DNA of 64,000 nucleotides, from contig PGYL01000008.1 in the NCBI GenBank assembly GCA_002839645.1, forward strand, positions 1-64,000. The letters run 5' to 3'. Positions 9,986 to 21,974 of this stretch are shown one piece after another (within the stretch, counting starts at the first letter, position 1; each line of letters opens with the position of its first letter). The position numbers and the translations under genes are program-made. The stretch comes from Methanomicrobiales archaeon HGW-Methanomicrobiales-2. Lineage in GTDB: Archaea > Halobacteriota > Methanomicrobia > Methanomicrobiales > Methanoculleaceae. Under the pieces are notes generated by a model. The model had not been told where the DNA came from. It ran no database searches and worked only from the letters and a program-made list of their open reading frames with translations.

Positions 9986-11227
9986 CTACAGCCACTCCGC
10001 TCTCCTGAATTCGTCCTCTCTCCCCATAACCATCGTGGCATCGACCCCGACCTTCACGTTCGTCCCGTCGGCAAGGCGCGTCGGGTCAAGCGACGAGCCC
10101 CGCACCCCGGTGATGACCATGATGTCGGTATCGCCCCGCACCCGTGTCGCGATCGCGTACTCGACGTCGTGGGGGTCGTGGATATCGATATCCTCGTCCA
10201 CCACCACGACGTGCTTTAACGAGGTGTGGGCGGCAAACGCCGCCATGATGGCGTTTTTGGCGTCACCTTGCGTGTTCTTCCGGATCTGGACCACCGCGTG
10301 GAGGTAGCCGGCGCCGCCTTTCGTGAGGAGGACGTCTTTGACCGTCGTCACCTCGCCGACAGCGCGGTAGATCTTCGGCTCGTAGGGGGCTCCCATCAGG
10401 AGTTTGTGCTCGTCGCCGGCGGGGAGGATGCCGTGATAGATGGGGTCCTCCTTGCAGTACATCCGGGTGAACTCGATCACGTGCTGCTGCCGGACAGGGT
10501 CGTAGGTGCCGGTGATATCGACGAACGGCCCTTCCGCCGCTTTTTCGGCCCCGATGTAGCCCTCGAGCACGATCTCGGCGTCGGGGACCCGGACGCCGTT
10601 TGCACACTCCCGGACCCTTAGTTCCCCGCCCATCAGCTCCGCCGCGTAGGTGAGTTCCTTTCCTTCCGGGACACGGGTGCAGGCGGCAAACGTCACGAGC
10701 GGGTGGGTGCCGACGGTGACGGCGATCGGGAGTCTCTCCCCCCGGGCGAGCGCCGCCTTAAGGAGGGTGTGGGTGTGTCTCCCCTCCACCAGGCGGGCGA
10801 CGACCCGATGGTCATCGAGGACCATCATCCGGTGAATGGAGGCGTTCTCCACACCGTCATAGCGCGAGAAGACTATCCCGGACGTGAAGTAGCGCCCGGC
10901 GTCCCCCGGGAAGTGCTTCATGACCGGGAGGCGGGAGAGATCGGCAGGGACGCCGCCCTGCAACCGTCCCGCGTCCACCACGCGGCCGCTGTAGGTGGCG
11001 GCCGCAAGGTGTCTGACCAGATCGCGCTCCTCCACGCCGAGCGCCGCTGCAAGCGATCGCCTGTCGCCGAGGAGGTTCATCACTCCCCGGTGGCCGTCGA
11101 GGTCGTGGAAGAAGAGGATCTTATCGGTCCGGCTCCCCATACGGGGGGCCTCGTAGACGGTCGAGCAGGTCCTCTCGATATCCTCAACCCTGCCCTGGTT
11201 TCGCATCATCGCTATGAAATCACGCAT
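9986..11227 (-). CDS. UbiD-family decarboxylase; probable anhydromevalonate phosphate decarboxylase
   Basis: UbiD enzymes are prenyl-FMN-dependent decarboxylases. The archaeal member paired with AcnX converts anhydromevalonate phosphate to isopentenyl phosphate. I place the start at 11227 (MRDFIAMMRNQG), because ATGCGTGA overlaps the ubiX stop by 8 nt and the ORF-track extension to 11251 lies inside ubiX. Conserved parts include NASIHRMM (metal/prFMN site), EGPFVDITGTY (residue about 230, the usual E-P-F block), MGAPYEP and VVVDEDIDIHDPHDVEYAIATR. The gene continues into acnX with no gap, so the three minus-strand genes form an operon. Confidence 0.82.
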   Translation of the reverse strand: MRDFIAMMRNQGRVEDIERTCSTVYEAPRMGSRTDKILFFHDLDGHRGVMNLLGDRRSLAAALGVEERDLVRHLAAATYSGRVVDAGRLQGGVPADLSRLPVMKHFPGDAGRYFTSGIVFSRYDGVENASIHRMMVLDDHRVVARLVEGRHTHTLLKAALARGERLPIAVTVGTHPLVTFAACTRVPEGKELTYAAELMGGELRVRECANGVRVPDAEIVLEGYIGAEKAAEGPFVDITGTYDPVRQQHVIEFTRMYCKEDPIYHGILPAGDEHKLLMGAPYEPKIYRAVGEVTTVKDVLLTKGGAGYLHAVVQIRKNTQGDAKNAIMAAFAAHTSLKHVVVVDEDIDIHDPHDVEYAIATRVRGDTDIMVITGVRGSSLDPTRLADGTNVKVGVDATMVMGREDEFRRAEWL

Positions 11228-14845: not shown

Positions 14846-15568
14846 CTACTGCATGCCTGACGAATTCTCTATGCCAACTCTATAGCGAGGATCAAAAAAT
14901 TTTGGAGTCTCATCCCAAAATGGGTTTAGTCCATAACAACTGATCAATGTGGATAATAATGAAGTTCGTAAATGTTTTAAAATTGAAATTATTTCATGTA
15001 GTTTATCTTTCGAAAATCGACTTGTTGCTCCATTATGGATTACTTGGTGCCTTTCTTTGAACAATTTAATCAAACTACTCCAATTTTCTTGAGATTTTTT
15101 AACGTTTGAATCTAGCATTTTGTCTAATTCGATATCAAAAAACGCTTTATATGCACTCTTTGCCCCTTTTCTTTCATTCAATCTTTGGAAACTCAAACGA
15201 GGTATGTCTCCGCCAAAGAGCGTCTTATCTAGACTATCCGTTTCAGGATCTAGACTGCCGCGCTCGTATACATAATAATTCTTTAAATATTCGTCAAATA
15301 TGCCAATATTATCGAGATAGTTTTTAATTTTCTCCCTAGTTTTCATATGATCGTGATTATCCAAGGTAGCAATCATGACATAGGGTTGATGGTAAAACCA
15401 CAGTTCTTTGGATGATCTAAAGGTATCACGTAAGAGAACTTCTGTAACTGATACTATCAAAATGACTGCCTCGTCGAGGTAATCGAGGTCTATTAGTTTT
15501 TCAATCCTATCAATATGACCGTCAAAAACGTCCGAGATTTTTTGGAGTTCTTCTCCCTTTAGTGCCAT
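14846..15568 (-). CDS. HEPN-domain protein (RiboL-PSP-HEPN-like), hypothetical
   Basis: A 240-residue all-helical protein in AT-rich DNA. Near residue 170 it carries RHQVIHNG, which fits the HEPN active-site pattern R-x4-H with a polar residue after Arg. HEPN domains of this kind are often RNases in toxin, abortive-infection or RNA-repair-associated systems. Earlier parts (EAVILIVSVTEVLLRDTF) resemble the first HEPN helices. No antitoxin-like partner gene is adjacent. Codon use differs clearly from the host genes. The HEPN assignment is inference from the motif and predicted helicity. Confidence 0.5.
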   Translation of the reverse strand: MALKGEELQKISDVFDGHIDRIEKLIDLDYLDEAVILIVSVTEVLLRDTFRSSKELWFYHQPYVMIATLDNHDHMKTREKIKNYLDNIGIFDEYLKNYYVYERGSLDPETDSLDKTLFGGDIPRLSFQRLNERKGAKSAYKAFFDIELDKMLDSNVKKSQENWSSLIKLFKERHQVIHNGATSRFSKDKLHEIISILKHLRTSLLSTLISCYGLNPFWDETPKFFDPRYRVGIENSSGMQ

Positions 15569-15654: not shown

Positions 15655-16515
15655 GAGATGGCTTTGTATTGGAGGTCATCCCATAACCCTCCAGATCATG
15701 ATGGCACGTGTCAGGTGGATCAATCCGAGGAATGAGTGCTCATAGCGTTCATATCGAGGAACAATCTTCTTGAATGCCTCGATCCAGCTGAAGAACCGTT
15801 CAATCGCCCCTCTTTCTTTGTACAGTATCAGATCGAACCAGCGCGGTCTTCCCCGCTTCGGGTGTAACCGGGATCTCGGGTTGGTCGGGATATTGCTCTT
15901 GATCCTTCGTTTCCAGTTGTACTAGCGGATCATCTGGGCATCGTAGGCTGCATCCGCCGAGATGATTGAGGGATGAACCTGCATCTCCGGAATCGTAAAC
16001 GCTTCAACGGTTGGTTCATAAAGTTGGGAATCATGGATATTTGCCGGGAAGATGGTGCAGACAAGAGGAAGACCGTTTCGATCGACCAGAGCGCTCAGCT
16101 TGTTCCCTTTTACTTTCTTATAGCCATCATAACCAGTCGATCCCCTTTTTTAGCCGGGATATCCTTGGTATCGGTGGAACAGTGGGTGAGATCGATTTTC
16201 CGGATCTCATATCCCGATCGAAGAAGGTCGAGGAAAATGTCCTGATAGATACTATGTTCGGCAAGATAGAGGTGAAACCGATGTACCGTCGATTTCGTGC
16301 CGTATTGCCGAGGGACGTCGCTCCAGATACAACTGGTGGTCAGGGCATACAGAATCCCGTTGAACATCGCCCGATGGTCGGTTCGGGGTCGCGCGACATG
16401 AGGTTTCTGAGGAGGGAGATGCGGCTCAATGATTGCCCAGAGATCGTCATCGGTTTCCCGGAATGCCATACATCTCGGGTTTTATTCAAGACCTCATATA
16501 ATTGTGGGACGATCT
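15655..16515 (-). mobile_element. Degraded IS5-family insertion sequence
   Basis: A transposase reading frame on the minus strand is flanked by loosely matching ends: GAGATGGCTTTGTATTGGAGGTC on the left and, in reverse complement, GAGATCGTCCCACAATTATATGAGGTC on the right. The ends share GAGAT and GAGGTC, but I cannot fix the exact terminal repeats or a target duplication. The transposase is defective (see its own entry). The element sits inside the AT-rich island between the HEPN gene and the T5orf172 gene. Confidence 0.6.
15676..16469 (-). pseudogene. IS5-family transposase, two-frame and with an internal stop
   Basis: The first frame (16469 to about 16110) encodes the N-terminal domain (LPPQKPHVARPRTDHRAMFNGILYAL in part, then WSDVPRQYG). 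The second, in the -1 frame, continues GYDGYKKVKGNKLSALVDRNGLPL and ends at 15676. The junction contains A6G4, so a programmed -1 shift is plausible, as in the IS427 group. A TAG at 15922-15924 interrupts the second frame, which otherwise runs on through KERGAIERFFSWIEAFKKIVP. The first catalytic Asp expected in a DST motif reads CST here. SADAAYDA and AIERFF supply the other two acidic residues. The element is probably dead. Confidence 0.75.
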
Positions 16516-16763: not shown

Positions 16764-18056
16764 ATGGGAATTGGTGATATATTCAAAATTTCTGATATTA
16801 AAAACGAAAATGAAAAGTTAAAGAAAGAAATTGAGGAGTTAAAATCGTATTTTAATCAGTTTCAGGGAATGGATCCTATTCAACTCAACAATGCAATTAA
16901 TAAATTAAAAACTGATATCCAAAATCTAGAACTAAATAAGCAGAAAAGCCAGAACGAAATTAACCAAGTTGAACAGGAATTAAACAAACTTAGAATGCAA
17001 ATTGTTTCGTCTGATGAAGAAATAACGCTTGAATCTTTTGCTTTATACAAACCACATTTCGCTTTTCACAATAGTCATGAATACAAACTTAAACTCGATG
17101 AAATCAGAGAAAAACAAAAAGAAATGATTAAAACTGACCGCGCCGCATCTTGTCCAACAGAATGGACCGTAAATAATAGTAAAAGTGAAGGTAAAAAGTT
17201 TGTAAAATCATTAAAAAAATTACTGTTAAGATCTTTCAATAATGAATGTGATTATTGCGTTGACCATGTAAAATTTAGTAATATTGACCAAAGCGAAAAA
17301 AGAATGAGCACTTCATTTGACACTATTAATAAACTGGGTGAAATAACGCAGATCTCTTTATCGCATGAATATAAAAAATTAAAATTTGATGAGCTTCATC
17401 TCGCATATGAATACCAACTGAAGAAACAGGAAGAAAAAGAAGAACAAGCACGACTAAGAGAGGAAATCAGAGAACAACAAAAATTAGAAAAGGAAATAAA
17501 ATTAGCCAGAGAAAAAATCGCAAAAGAAAAGAAGCATTATGCACAAGTTATTGCGGAAATTACACAAAGAATCTCAGATTCTACTGATGAACAAGAGTTA
17601 ATCGATTTAAATTCAAAATTGGAAAAATTACAAAAAGAAAGGTTAGCTTTAGATGAGGAAGAGAAACTCGTAGATTATCGAGAGAAAAATGCTAAAGCAG
17701 GTTATATTTATATCATTTCGAACATCGGTGCATTTGGCAAAAATGTATTTAAGATAGGTATGACTCGCAGGTTAGATCCTTATGAAAGAGTATATGAGCT
17801 AGGTGATTCTTCTGTACCATTTCCATTTGATACTCATGCAATGATTTTCTCTGATAATGCTCCAGCTCTAGAGGCTATAATTCATCAGCATTTTCATAAA
17901 AATAGGTTGAATAAAATCAATAATCGACGAGAATTTTTTGTTGCCGATGTCAATGAGCTTGAAAAAGTAATTAGGGAAAACTATGATAAGGTTATTGATT
18001 TCGTAAAAGAATCACCTGCAGAACAATATCGAGAAAGTCTCTTAACTCGAGATTAA
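16764..18056 (+). CDS. Coiled-coil DUF4041 protein with C-terminal T5orf172 (GIY-YIG-like) domain
   Basis: A 430-residue protein. Residues 15-90 are a coiled coil. Residues about 90-220 match the DUF4041 pattern (SFALYKPHFAFHNSHEYKLKLDEIREKQKEMI in part), with KKLLLRSFNNECD. A second long charged coiled coil follows. The C-terminus from about 318 (AGYIYIISNIGAFGKNVFKIGMTR) has the GIY-YIG-like T5orf172 fold, ending in EAIIHQHFHKNRLNKINNRREFF with the conserved Glu. Proteins of this architecture are widespread in phages and mobile islands; a nuclease role is inferred, not shown. The gene is strongly AT-rich beside a high-GC genome. Confidence 0.75.
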   Translation: MGIGDIFKISDIKNENEKLKKEIEELKSYFNQFQGMDPIQLNNAINKLKTDIQNLELNKQKSQNEINQVEQELNKLRMQIVSSDEEITLESFALYKPHFAFHNSHEYKLKLDEIREKQKEMIKTDRAASCPTEWTVNNSKSEGKKFVKSLKKLLLRSFNNECDYCVDHVKFSNIDQSEKRMSTSFDTINKLGEITQISLSHEYKKLKFDELHLAYEYQLKKQEEKEEQARLREEIREQQKLEKEIKLAREKIAKEKKHYAQVIAEITQRISDSTDEQELIDLNSKLEKLQKERLALDEEEKLVDYREKNAKAGYIYIISNIGAFGKNVFKIGMTRRLDPYERVYELGDSSVPFPFDTHAMIFSDNAPALEAIIHQHFHKNRLNKINNRREFFVADVNELEKVIRENYDKVIDFVKESPAEQYRESLLTRD

Positions 18057-18520: not shown

Positions 18521-19231
18521 TTACGTCAAAGTAGGGAGGTGAGTCTTCATTTCGCTGCTTCCTTCAATGAATTCTAAAAATTCCAATCCAAACGCAGATA
18601 TCTCCACAATTTCATATGCCCCTGTGCTTAACCGACCCATACCATCATCACTGAGAAGAGACTTTGATATCAGATCTTGATTGTAAAATTTCAGCAAAGC
18701 GTAGTCCAGACCTAGACATGTAGCAGCCCAGGCACTTCGGATTTTTTCTAGAACTTCCGGTGATTGCTCACCTTGATTTGTTTCTTTCAGTTCTTTTCGC
18801 AGATTTCGGTAATAACTGAGAACCCGAATTTGATCCTCATTAATCCGTAAGGCTAAATCCAAGAAGGTCTCTTTGAAGTCGGAAGTATAGGGGCATACAG
18901 CTTCATTGATCAGTATTTTTTGAAATCGCTTTATTTTATCTTCTGATTTTGTAGTAATGACTCTTTGAAGGATGGAGTAAAACAAATCATTGTAATCCTC
19001 GCATTTGATGTATTCTTTGTCGATGCATGCAGGATCGACCGATTTTAAAAATGCCTCAAATCCTAATACGAAGTAGTTGATACGCTTTTGAATAATCCGC
19101 TCTCGACATTCAATTACTTCCCTCACCATCGGACCAACGCCAGGGGCTAGGTTCAGGAGCATGTTTCTTGTTGTGACTGCAATCTCATCGCCGATTATGT
19201 CAATCTCTTTGTTGTCCATGTTAATTCCCAT
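18521..19231 (-). CDS. Hypothetical helical protein, partner of the caspase-like gene
   Basis: A 236-residue protein of unknown function. Near residues 28-50 it has LAPGVGPMVREVIECRER followed by a long helical, charged region. This 'P.G..V.E....R..R' opening resembles families I associate with defence islands, but I cannot name one. It begins 9 nt after the stop of the upstream gene, so the two are very likely co-translated. An alternative start at 19219 (MDNKEID) is equally possible. Codon use is AT-rich, as in the rest of the island. Confidence 0.55.
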   Translation of the reverse strand: MGINMDNKEIDIIGDEIAVTTRNMLLNLAPGVGPMVREVIECRERIIQKRINYFVLGFEAFLKSVDPACIDKEYIKCEDYNDLFYSILQRVITTKSEDKIKRFQKILINEAVCPYTSDFKETFLDLALRINEDQIRVLSYYRNLRKELKETNQGEQSPEVLEKIRSAWAATCLGLDYALLKFYNQDLISKSLLSDDGMGRLSTGAYEIVEISAFGLEFLEFIEGSSEMKTHLPTLT

Positions 19232-19240
19232 ATCTGTCTG

Positions 19241-19861
19241 CTAATTGATGTTAAACTCTTCCAGGATTTGTTTAATGAATTTTCTGTTTCTTGTTGGATT
19301 GTTTATCTGATTTGAAACAAATCCACGGCCACTAGATAGTGTTTCGGTAAGTGATTCCTCATCACCGTGATTACAGTGGAATTGATAAATGTACTTTTTA
19401 CGCAATTGAGGCATGTTCTTAAACTCTGAATAGTTACAGATCTCTCGCTTCCAAGAGTACAAACCTACTCCTCCCCGATAACCATGACCAAAGATCCACA
19501 GGCTTTCGGCCAAGGGTTTTCTCACAACATCTCTAAACTGTTCTATTGTGGTGCAGTGATAGACAGCATAAGGAGTGATCGGTGATGTTTTCCTAAAATG
19601 GTTTATCAATAAACCTATGCCACTCCCGTACATAGACATGCCTGCAACGTCAGAATGAACGATTACTATGGCATCGTGTCCTAGATGCGGCATGTATGAA
19701 CTATACCGTTTGGCAATTTCTTTGCTATATATGTTGTAAAGGAAATCCCAAATTAGGATGTAGTGGACGTAGTCTCGGATAAGATATAAAATAGAGAAAT
19801 GTTCCTTGAGCTCTTGGCGCGCCCAGACCCCATAGACGGACACCCCCCGACCAAGCACCAC
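19241..19861 (-). CDS. Predicted caspase/CHAT-fold cysteine protease-like protein
   Basis: A 206-residue protein. The C-terminal 140 residues alternate hydrophobic strands and helices (HDAIVIVHSD, YAVYHC, SLWIFGHG, YIYQFHC). The third strand ends in GHG, and 37 residues after that His the next strand ends in FHCNHG, the layout of the His-Cys dyad in caspase-like and CHAT proteases. The N-terminus is hydrophobic (residues 1-45) and could be a membrane anchor. The start is uncertain: the frame opens with GTG codons, and base composition switches from AT-rich to host-like GC-rich near 19812, so the native 5' end may have been replaced at the island boundary. The protease call is inference from motif order. 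Confidence 0.45.
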   Translation of the reverse strand: MVLGRGVSVYGVWARQELKEHFSILYLIRDYVHYILIWDFLYNIYSKEIAKRYSSYMPHLGHDAIVIVHSDVAGMSMYGSGIGLLINHFRKTSPITPYAVYHCTTIEQFRDVVRKPLAESLWIFGHGYRGGVGLYSWKREICNYSEFKNMPQLRKKYIYQFHCNHGDEESLTETLSSGRGFVSNQINNPTRNRKFIKQILEEFNIN

Positions 19862-20096
19862 AACGCTGACCGCCGAGATCCATGTTGGGTCGGGGAGGCA
19901 GTACGCCCGAGGGCTATTGCGATCCCGGGAGGCTGACTGCCGTGACGAGGACGGAAAGCCGGATTCTTATAAGTGGCCAGGAACCCGGAGAGCGCGCCCA
20001 TCAACACTCAACCTCCGCCCCGACCCCATACCCCTCCCCACCACAGCAAATGAAACTGTTAACCCCCCAGACCCCCCACATACAGGGCATTCAGCC

Positions 20097-20999
20097 ATGA
20101 TCACCTTCCTCTCGGGCGGAACCGGAGTACCTGCGCTCATCCGGGGCGCCCGGCAGATCCTCTACGACAGCGAGATCGCCGTGGTCGCGAATACCGCTGA
20201 GGATCTCTGGGTCTCGGGGAGCCACTGTGCGCCGGATATCGACACCGCCATCTTCCTCTTTTCCGGCATCCTCGATCCCGGCCGGTGGTGGGGGATCAAG
20301 GGGGATACCTACGCCACCCACAACTACCTCCCGAAGGTGGCGGGCGGCGAACCCTTCGTGATCGGCGACCGTGCCCGGGCCGTCCAGATCGCACGGGCGG
20401 CGCTCCTCAAGAAGGGATGGACCCTGACGGAGGCGGTGCAGGCGCAGTGCCGCTCACTCAACATCGGGGCGACCGTCCTCCCGGTGACCGACGGGGATTC
20501 CGCCCTCTTCGTCGATACCGGCACCGAACGGCTGCCGCTCTTTACCTACTGGATGGCCGCCGACGCCGGGACGGAAGTGCGGGAACTCGTCAGGCCCGAG
20601 CCCCCGGCAGTGACGGACGAGGTCCGGGCGGCGATCGAGGCAAGCGACGCCGTGGTGATCGGTGCCGGAAACCCCGCCCGGAGCATCCTCCCCATCCTCG
20701 ACTGCGCCGGCATGCGCAGCCTCCTCCGCGATACGTTCGTGGTGGCGGTCTCGCCGTTCCGGGGCGGCAGTCCGCCGGACCCAAAGGATGCCGCCCTCAT
20801 GTATGCCATCGGCGAAACCCCGACCTCCCCGGCGGTCTTCCGGCTTTATGAGGACATCGTCGATGTCTTCGTCCAGGACCTCCACGACCCCGACGAGGTC
20901 CCCGGGTCACTCCGTCTTGAGACTCGTCTCCTGCATACCCGGCAGGCCGAATCGCTCGCCTGGGACATCATGGCGGTCATACGGCACGCGGTTTCGTAA
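20097..20999 (+). CDS. cofD: 2-phospho-L-lactate transferase (CofD) paralogue 1
   Basis: CofD joins the phospholactyl group to 7,8-didemethyl-8-hydroxy-5-deazariboflavin (Fo) in coenzyme F420 synthesis. The ATG at 20097 gives [20 protein letters not shown], the family's nucleotide-binding start, so the ORF-track extension to 19917 is rejected. VANTAEDLWVSGSHCAPDID and GDRARAVQIARAALLKKG are standard CofD blocks. The later motif reads GAGNPARSILPIL, whereas the downstream paralogue has the commoner [13 protein letters not shown]. At 300 residues it is full length. Confidence 0.85.
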   Translation: MITFLSGGTGVPALIRGARQILYDSEIAVVANTAEDLWVSGSHCAPDIDTAIFLFSGILDPGRWWGIKGDTYATHNYLPKVAGGEPFVIGDRARAVQIARAALLKKGWTLTEAVQAQCRSLNIGATVLPVTDGDSALFVDTGTERLPLFTYWMAADAGTEVRELVRPEPPAVTDEVRAAIEASDAVVIGAGNPARSILPILDCAGMRSLLRDTFVVAVSPFRGGSPPDPKDAALMYAIGETPTSPAVFRLYEDIVDVFVQDLHDPDEVPGSLRLETRLLHTRQAESLAWDIMAVIRHAVS

Positions 21000-21071: not shown

Positions 21072-21974
21072 ATGATAACTTTCCTCTCGGGCGGGACCGG
21101 AACCCCGAAGCTCCTCCGCGGCATGCAGGAACTGCTGGATGAGCGGGATATTGCGGTCATCGTCAACACGGCCGAGGACACGTGGCTTTCCGGCAACCAC
21201 CTCTCCCCTGACCTCGATACGGTCATGTACCTCTTTGCAGGCATCCTCGACACCGGCCGGTGGTGGGGGATCCGCGACGACACCTACATCACCCACGACC
21301 TCCTCGCGCGACTCGGCGTCGAGGAGTACATCGCCGTCGGGGACCAGGACCGGGCGATCCACGTTGCGCGAGGAGAGATGCTTCGGGGCGGCATGCGCCT
21401 CACCGAGGCGACTGCAATGCTCTGCAGGAGTCTGGCCGTCCGGGCGACCGTCCTCCCGATGACCGACTCCCCCGTGACGACCTACGTCCGCACCGACCAG
21501 GGAGAGATACACTTCCAGGAGTACTGGGTGAAGCACCGCGGGGACCTGGCGATCGACGGCGTGACCCGGCGGTTCCCGGAGCCGCCGGTCGCGACCGGCG
21601 AGGTTATCCGGGCGATCGAGGCGAGCGACGCCGTGGTGATCGGGCCGAGCAACCCGGTCACGAGCATATCGCCGATCCTCGAGTGCGCCGGGGTGAGGGA
21701 GGCGCTCCGCCACCAGAACGTCATCGCGGTCAGCCCCTTCATCGGCGATGCTCCGGTCAGCGGCCCGGCAGCGGCCCTGATGCGGGCCTTCGGCAAAGAA
21801 CCCTCATCGGCAGGAACCTGCGGTCTCTACGAGGACTTTGTGGACGTATTCATCCAGGACGTCCGGGACCCGGTCGGGATCGAGGGGGCTCTCCGCCTCG
21901 ACACCCTCATGGTCAACCGGGGCAAGAGCCTGGACCTCGCCAAAAACATACTGACACTGATATACCGGTGTTAA
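21072..21974 (+). CDS. cofD: 2-phospho-L-lactate transferase (CofD) paralogue 2
   Basis: A 300-residue CofD with the same length and architecture as the copy 72 bp upstream. It begins [20 protein letters not shown], followed by [20 protein letters not shown] and [19 protein letters not shown], which match the canonical enzyme more closely than the first copy. I take this as the likely housekeeping F420 enzyme. Protein similarity between the two is substantial but clearly below identity, so the duplication is old rather than recent. It ends 6 nt from the convergent iscU gene. Confidence 0.88.

Follow-up and report, generated by a model that had tools for sequence, protein, structure and literature searches.

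A probable remnant of a solo membrane-tethered caspase-like protease gene, and an independent Abi-alpha-like neighbour, in a genomic island of a Methanomicrobiales archaeon

In a 64,000-nucleotide stretch of DNA from Methanomicrobiales archaeon HGW-Methanomicrobiales-2 (the window), a minus-strand reading frame, ORF1 (19241-19861; 206 aa from an apparent GTG start), is in all likelihood the degraded copy of a solo gene for a membrane-tethered caspase-like protease, and the reading frame that follows it after nine bases on the same strand, ORF2 (18521-19231; 236 aa), an independent Abi-alpha-like neighbour. An earlier note on this DNA had described both frames, which are indeed present, and had proposed that they form a two-gene system with a caspase/CHAT-like effector. 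The observations on which the present reading is built, namely an ORF1 family, conservation of its His-Cys dyad, its predicted fold, membrane-type segments in the relatives, truncation of the window copy and lack of pairing with ORF2, are held with high confidence.

ORF1 belongs to a real, uncatalogued family that was recognised through a broken member. Relatives were found in 27 of the 232 genomes of the window's class, spread over 12 of 40 genera, and when 394 genomes of the phylum were searched with a profile, five further genomes outside the class were added, in three of which stop codons lie inside the match. The family is patchy in Methanomicrobiales and rare elsewhere in the phylum, its intact genes being dispersed among methanogens, and its aligned members share only 21-41% identity with the window copy. 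Across them FGHG never varies and QxHCN hardly does: in the 27-member alignment GHG is kept in all 27, and the Cys and the His preceding it in 26 each. Once six extra members are counted, all 33 have the GHG His and 32 have the Cys, the lone exception (L069) having Gly; in four members the second motif reads QYHCN or QLHCN. In ORF1 these residues are the predicted catalytic His126 (codon 19484-19486, minus strand; GHG) and Cys163 (codon 19373-19375, minus strand; QFHCN). The earlier note had singled out this GHG and FHC, spaced 37 residues apart, and had made conservation of His and Cys among homologues a check of its proposal; the conservation found puts the pair far above chance.

The family has been overlooked by Pfam, NCBIfam, PHROGs and PADLOC, in none of which ORF1 has a meaningful profile match. 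None of the 27 members matched Pfam C14 (PF00656) at E 0.1, nor did any match the CHAT profile (PF12770); a sequence search of the PDB with ORF1 gave no match, no relative was found in phages, plasmids or IMG/VR, and a contig scan with the single ORF1 protein as query returned none. The DNA pattern WIFGHG...HCN occurred at 12 loci, ten of them in Methanomicrobiales, and the family is absent from Bacteria as judged by this strict DNA pattern alone. The two pattern matches from outside the methanogens were set aside: in L073 (Gemmatimonadales) one motif is in another frame than its partner, and L081, a contig assigned to an 'Acholeplasmataceae' MAG, has a family gene almost the same as one of Methanocorpusculum and is most likely misbinned.

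The AlphaFold2 model of the window ORF1, built on a 27-row alignment, reached a pLDDT of 89.6 and a pTM of 0.82, and consists of a long N-terminal helix followed by strands at 62-68, 98-103, 118-125 and 157-160 with helices between them. By DSSP, GHG follows the third strand (beta-3, 118-125), with His126 at its end, and QFHC follows the fourth (beta-4, 157-160). In clan CD, caspases and CHAT proteases place the catalytic dyad at the same strand ends. Foldseek against the PDB gave SAVED-CHAT (8tl0) as best match (E 0.007, probability 1.00), followed by caspase-11 and procaspase-1. The structural comparison called for by the earlier note thus returned caspase-like proteins at the top, but no match passed an E-value of 0.001 and TM-scores were modest (0.32-0.45), in part because the 44-residue N-terminal helix was included. 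The viral structure library held no convincing match to the model. A profile-profile comparison, of the kind that the note had also asked for (HHpred), was not significant with hhalign, either against C14 proteins of the same class (P 0.28, yet with GHG and the Cys in register) or against CHAT proteins of the same class (P 0.94). Given these weak profile comparisons beside the predicted fold, the SAVED-CHAT and caspase matches and the strictly conserved dyad, the caspase-like fold first suggested for ORF1 is upheld on the model, and ORF1 is therefore termed caspase-like, as a member of neither C14 nor CHAT.

N-terminal hydrophobic segments of transmembrane (TM) strength were found by Kyte-Doolittle in 23 of the 26 other aligned members, with one to four segments per TM-bearing member, most often two and in some four. 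(Genome G040 holds three caspase-family members, with L064 at G040:C4 and L044 at G040:C6; two of its three members have four hydrophobic segments.) The window copy has none: no 19-residue stretch of ORF1 reaches 1.6, hence no membrane segment, and the hydrophobic N-terminus read from it earlier was misleading, since its first codons have another origin. This became visible from the syntenic locus of a sister species (L050 in genome G048), whose flanks are ~87-90% identical to the window. The G048 caspase gene begins MLSLGITVYVLLQIFLFVG...NWKNVPKPKP, in agreement with the intact Methanoculleus sediminis protein of L053 (8057-8854, plus strand; ...DWKTPPAPKP), and its 5′ end, MLSLGITVYVLLQIFLFVGPIVE..., is as the family predicts.

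Homology of the window to the G048 gene ends at ~19806 (blastn, MAFFT), and from ~19800 the window instead matches L050 from 10917, a position that precedes the start codon of the G048 gene (10829) on its upstream side (window 19800-19958 against L050 10917-11076, a 67% blastn alignment). The two abutting blastn matches, together with MAFFT, place a deletion junction at 19800-19806, where ~240 bp of G048 (L050 ~10676-10917), comprising the start codon, the membrane segment and upstream DNA, are missing from the window. This deletion fused upstream sequence in frame, so that the first ~20 codons of ORF1 are former intergenic DNA. ORF1 can accordingly be divided into an accidental 5′ extension that includes the apparent GTG (19804-19861, minus strand) and corresponds to intergenic upstream DNA in the sister locus, and the caspase-like domain remnant proper (codons ~21-206; 19241-19803, minus strand), which is delimited by the family alignment, the AlphaFold2 model and blastn/MAFFT against L050. 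The G048 copy has kept its 5′ end, and a 1-nt deletion splits it into two frames. A single shared event was rejected as the cause of the G048 frameshift and the window truncation, the lesions being at different places; on sequence comparison the two lesions are independent.

In a pairwise comparison of the window with G048, dN/dS is 0.17-0.27 for two stretches of the caspase gene and 0.12 for ORF2. Purifying selection therefore acted on both genes through much of the divergence; the estimate is silent on when the caspase gene died. The window copy is probably non-functional, because the ~240-bp deletion took its anchor, its start codon and its upstream region.

ORF2 is intact (18521-19231, minus strand), although the initial Met of its relatives aligns near its second Met; its start may therefore be 19219, which would widen the gap to ORF1 to 21 nt. 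Homologues were found in five genomes besides the window's, with only archaeal relatives found. Pfam Abi_alpha matched weakly in two of five ORF2 members (best E 0.0036, below the curated cut-off), and hhalign against archaeal Abi_alpha gave a P of 3.5e-4 over 183 columns with a probability of 37%. In the AlphaFold2 model (pLDDT 73.5) a helical body is joined by a winged helix at the C-terminus, and Foldseek gave MarR-like winged helix-turn-helix proteins as matches. ORF2 is best described as a distant Abi-alpha-like protein that lies under the threshold of family membership.

The proposal that ORF1 and ORF2 make up a functional system of the abortive-infection or toxin-like kind, ORF1 being the protease effector and ORF2 its partner or sensor, draws on the adjacency of the two genes on one strand with a gap of 9-21 nt and an order kept in two species, on purifying selection acting on each, and on the resemblance of ORF2 to Abi-alpha, one member of which was shown to be abortive-infective (PMC6356687). 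It is nonetheless very unlikely. Apart from the window, the pair is found only at the one syntenic sister locus in G048. Each of these two genomes has a broken caspase gene, and the lesion differs between them; none of the other caspase-family loci contains an ORF2 relative or a recurrent neighbour, and the ORF2 relatives of four other genomes occur where no caspase gene is present; the pair is thus missing from all other loci of either family. Maps of 28 loci likewise revealed no recurrent neighbour family around the caspase-family genes. Cotranslation, which the earlier note had read from the spacing, concerns an arrangement that is not conserved, and homologues almost never pair, the very finding that the note had named as speaking against its system. 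Most likely, ORF2 is a separate intact gene that came by chance to lie downstream of the caspase gene in the window lineage. Equally improbable is a reading of the window copy as a soluble derivative that still functions, in which loss of the anchor freed the caspase-like domain and the GTG serves as a new start. The 206 open codons, the intact dyad and core and a G-rich stretch upstream of the GTG would fit such a product; on the other side, the ~90 bp that preceded the original start, and with them probably the promoter, were lost in the deletion as well, the GTG lacks a good ribosome-binding site, and the sister copy is independently dead.

The locus most likely represents a high-turnover island. 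Between conserved host genes at window ~12998 and ~20009, the island differs largely between the window and G048. It contains, outside the ORF1/ORF2 pair, a SNIPE/PD-Lambda-1-like gene (DUF4041 plus T5orf172 GIY-YIG; 16764-18056, plus strand; PADLOC PD-Lambda-1 E 8.9e-145, Pfam DUF4041) that is absent from G048, as are the gene of a 240-aa HEPN-like protein (14846-15568, minus strand; weak RiboL-PSP HEPN match, E 0.0045) and an IS4/5-type transposase fragment (16110-16469, minus strand; DUF4096, E 1.3e-19). The match of the SNIPE-like protein starts at model position 55, with no in-frame extension that has a start codon, and its N-terminal TM anchor therefore seems absent. Found only in G048 are, upstream of the caspase gene, the gene of a membrane protein of 316 aa (L050:11259-12209, plus strand) and, adjoining ORF2, the gene of a 199-aa protein (L050:8691-9290, plus strand) in which ECKYRSG may be a restriction-endonuclease-like motif. 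The variable island is bordered by two paralogous CofD-like genes that lie side by side (19917-20999 and 21072-21974, plus strand; recognised by eye from the sequence) and have the same order in G048.

Around the family as a whole, the 117 genes that lie no more than 3.5 kb from 26 members gave matches to 326 PADLOC models, as compared with 120 for 117 random genes from the same genomes, counts that are inflated by redundant restriction-modification models. Type I restriction subunits numbered at least three among the neighbours and none among the random matches listed, AriA four versus two, and mad3 four versus five. This modest enrichment of defence genes is no more than a modest hint of defence islands.

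What intact members do may be sketched as follows. They carry predicted N-terminal TM helices (most often two, in some four) and then one alpha/beta domain of ~150 residues, in which the His of FGHG and the Cys of QxHCN are each predicted to end one of two neighbouring strands, the arrangement known from caspases and CHAT proteases. Their genes stand alone, in variable regions where defence genes are often present. The membrane part would tether the caspase-like domain and perhaps sense; upon membrane perturbation, oligomerisation or ligand binding, the activated domain would cleave cellular proteins, after which the cell would stop growing or die. That intact members are membrane-tethered proteases that kill or arrest the cell once activated, the window copy being dead, we infer with about even confidence. 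A role in defence is put somewhat below that, and it is a tentative idea, on the doubtful side, that this solo membrane-anchored family provides an archaeal single-gene, membrane-triggered suicide or anti-virus effector with no dedicated sensor gene.

Alternatively, and with no better prospects than that last idea, intact members may be membrane-tethered proteases whose substrate is a regulatory or housekeeping one, acting for instance in membrane-protein turnover or signalling and not in virus defence. The lack of a PADLOC match and of relatives in phages, plasmids and IMG/VR would agree with such a role, as would the modest size of the defence-gene enrichment nearby; set against it are the patchy occurrence (27 of 232 genomes), the copy number of up to three per genome, and the location in variable regions with no conserved neighbourhood, which would be unusual for housekeeping genes. 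It is also improbable, if less so than a paired system, that the domain is caspase-like in fold and not a protease, its His-Cys together with the His and Gln of QxHCN serving other chemistry or the binding of a ligand or metal. In C14 and CHAT proteases the Cys usually stands in a D-x-C or A-C context. The QxHC of the family, with its invariant Gln and near-invariant His, is unlike these, and one member has changed Cys to Gly; however, GHG and Cys at adjacent strand ends are the clan CD arrangement, and the best fold matches are families of active proteases. The favoured reading, that the family consists of solo membrane-tethered caspase-like proteases, would carry some weight in archaea, where recognised caspase-like genes are few (metacaspases in 5 of 114 archaeal genomes in a 2012 survey; PMC3501461). 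If the intact members are active, methanogens would have in them a small membrane-tethered caspase-like protease that lends itself to testing and that could be considered for a part in programmed cell death or in defence against viruses in archaea; as a remnant, the window copy is itself of little weight.

Among known systems, CHAT proteases such as SAVED-CHAT (8tl0, PF12770) share with the ORF1 family the placing of the His behind a strand that ends in GH(G) and of the Cys on the next strand, whereas the family lacks a CHAT profile match and any SAVED/TPR part, being a single domain of ~150 residues with N-terminal membrane helices and its Cys in QxHCN. C14 proteases, metacaspases and orthocaspases (PF00656) share the GHG...C order and are represented among the Foldseek matches by caspase-11 and procaspase-1, and some prokaryotic metacaspases likewise have an N-terminal TM helix (PMC3501461); unlike them, the family has no p10-like half, no Pfam match and no significant profile comparison, and C14 proteins of the same class are encoded by separate genes. 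ORF2 resembles Abi-alpha (DUF4393, PF14337; EF2833, PMC6356687), which in Enterococcus faecalis causes abortive infection with premature lysis (PMC6356687), in size and apparently also in its helical body, where 'SDFKETFLDL.lRINEDQI.iL' aligns with 'hPaFvEiikqLspdEakiL', and in a C-terminal segment that closes with 'T.FG..F'. The neighbouring SNIPE-like protein matches SNIPE/PD-Lambda-1 (PMC13190303) over nearly its full length and differs in missing the TM-bearing N-terminal stretch, the anchor by which SNIPE of E. coli is restrained (PMC13190303).
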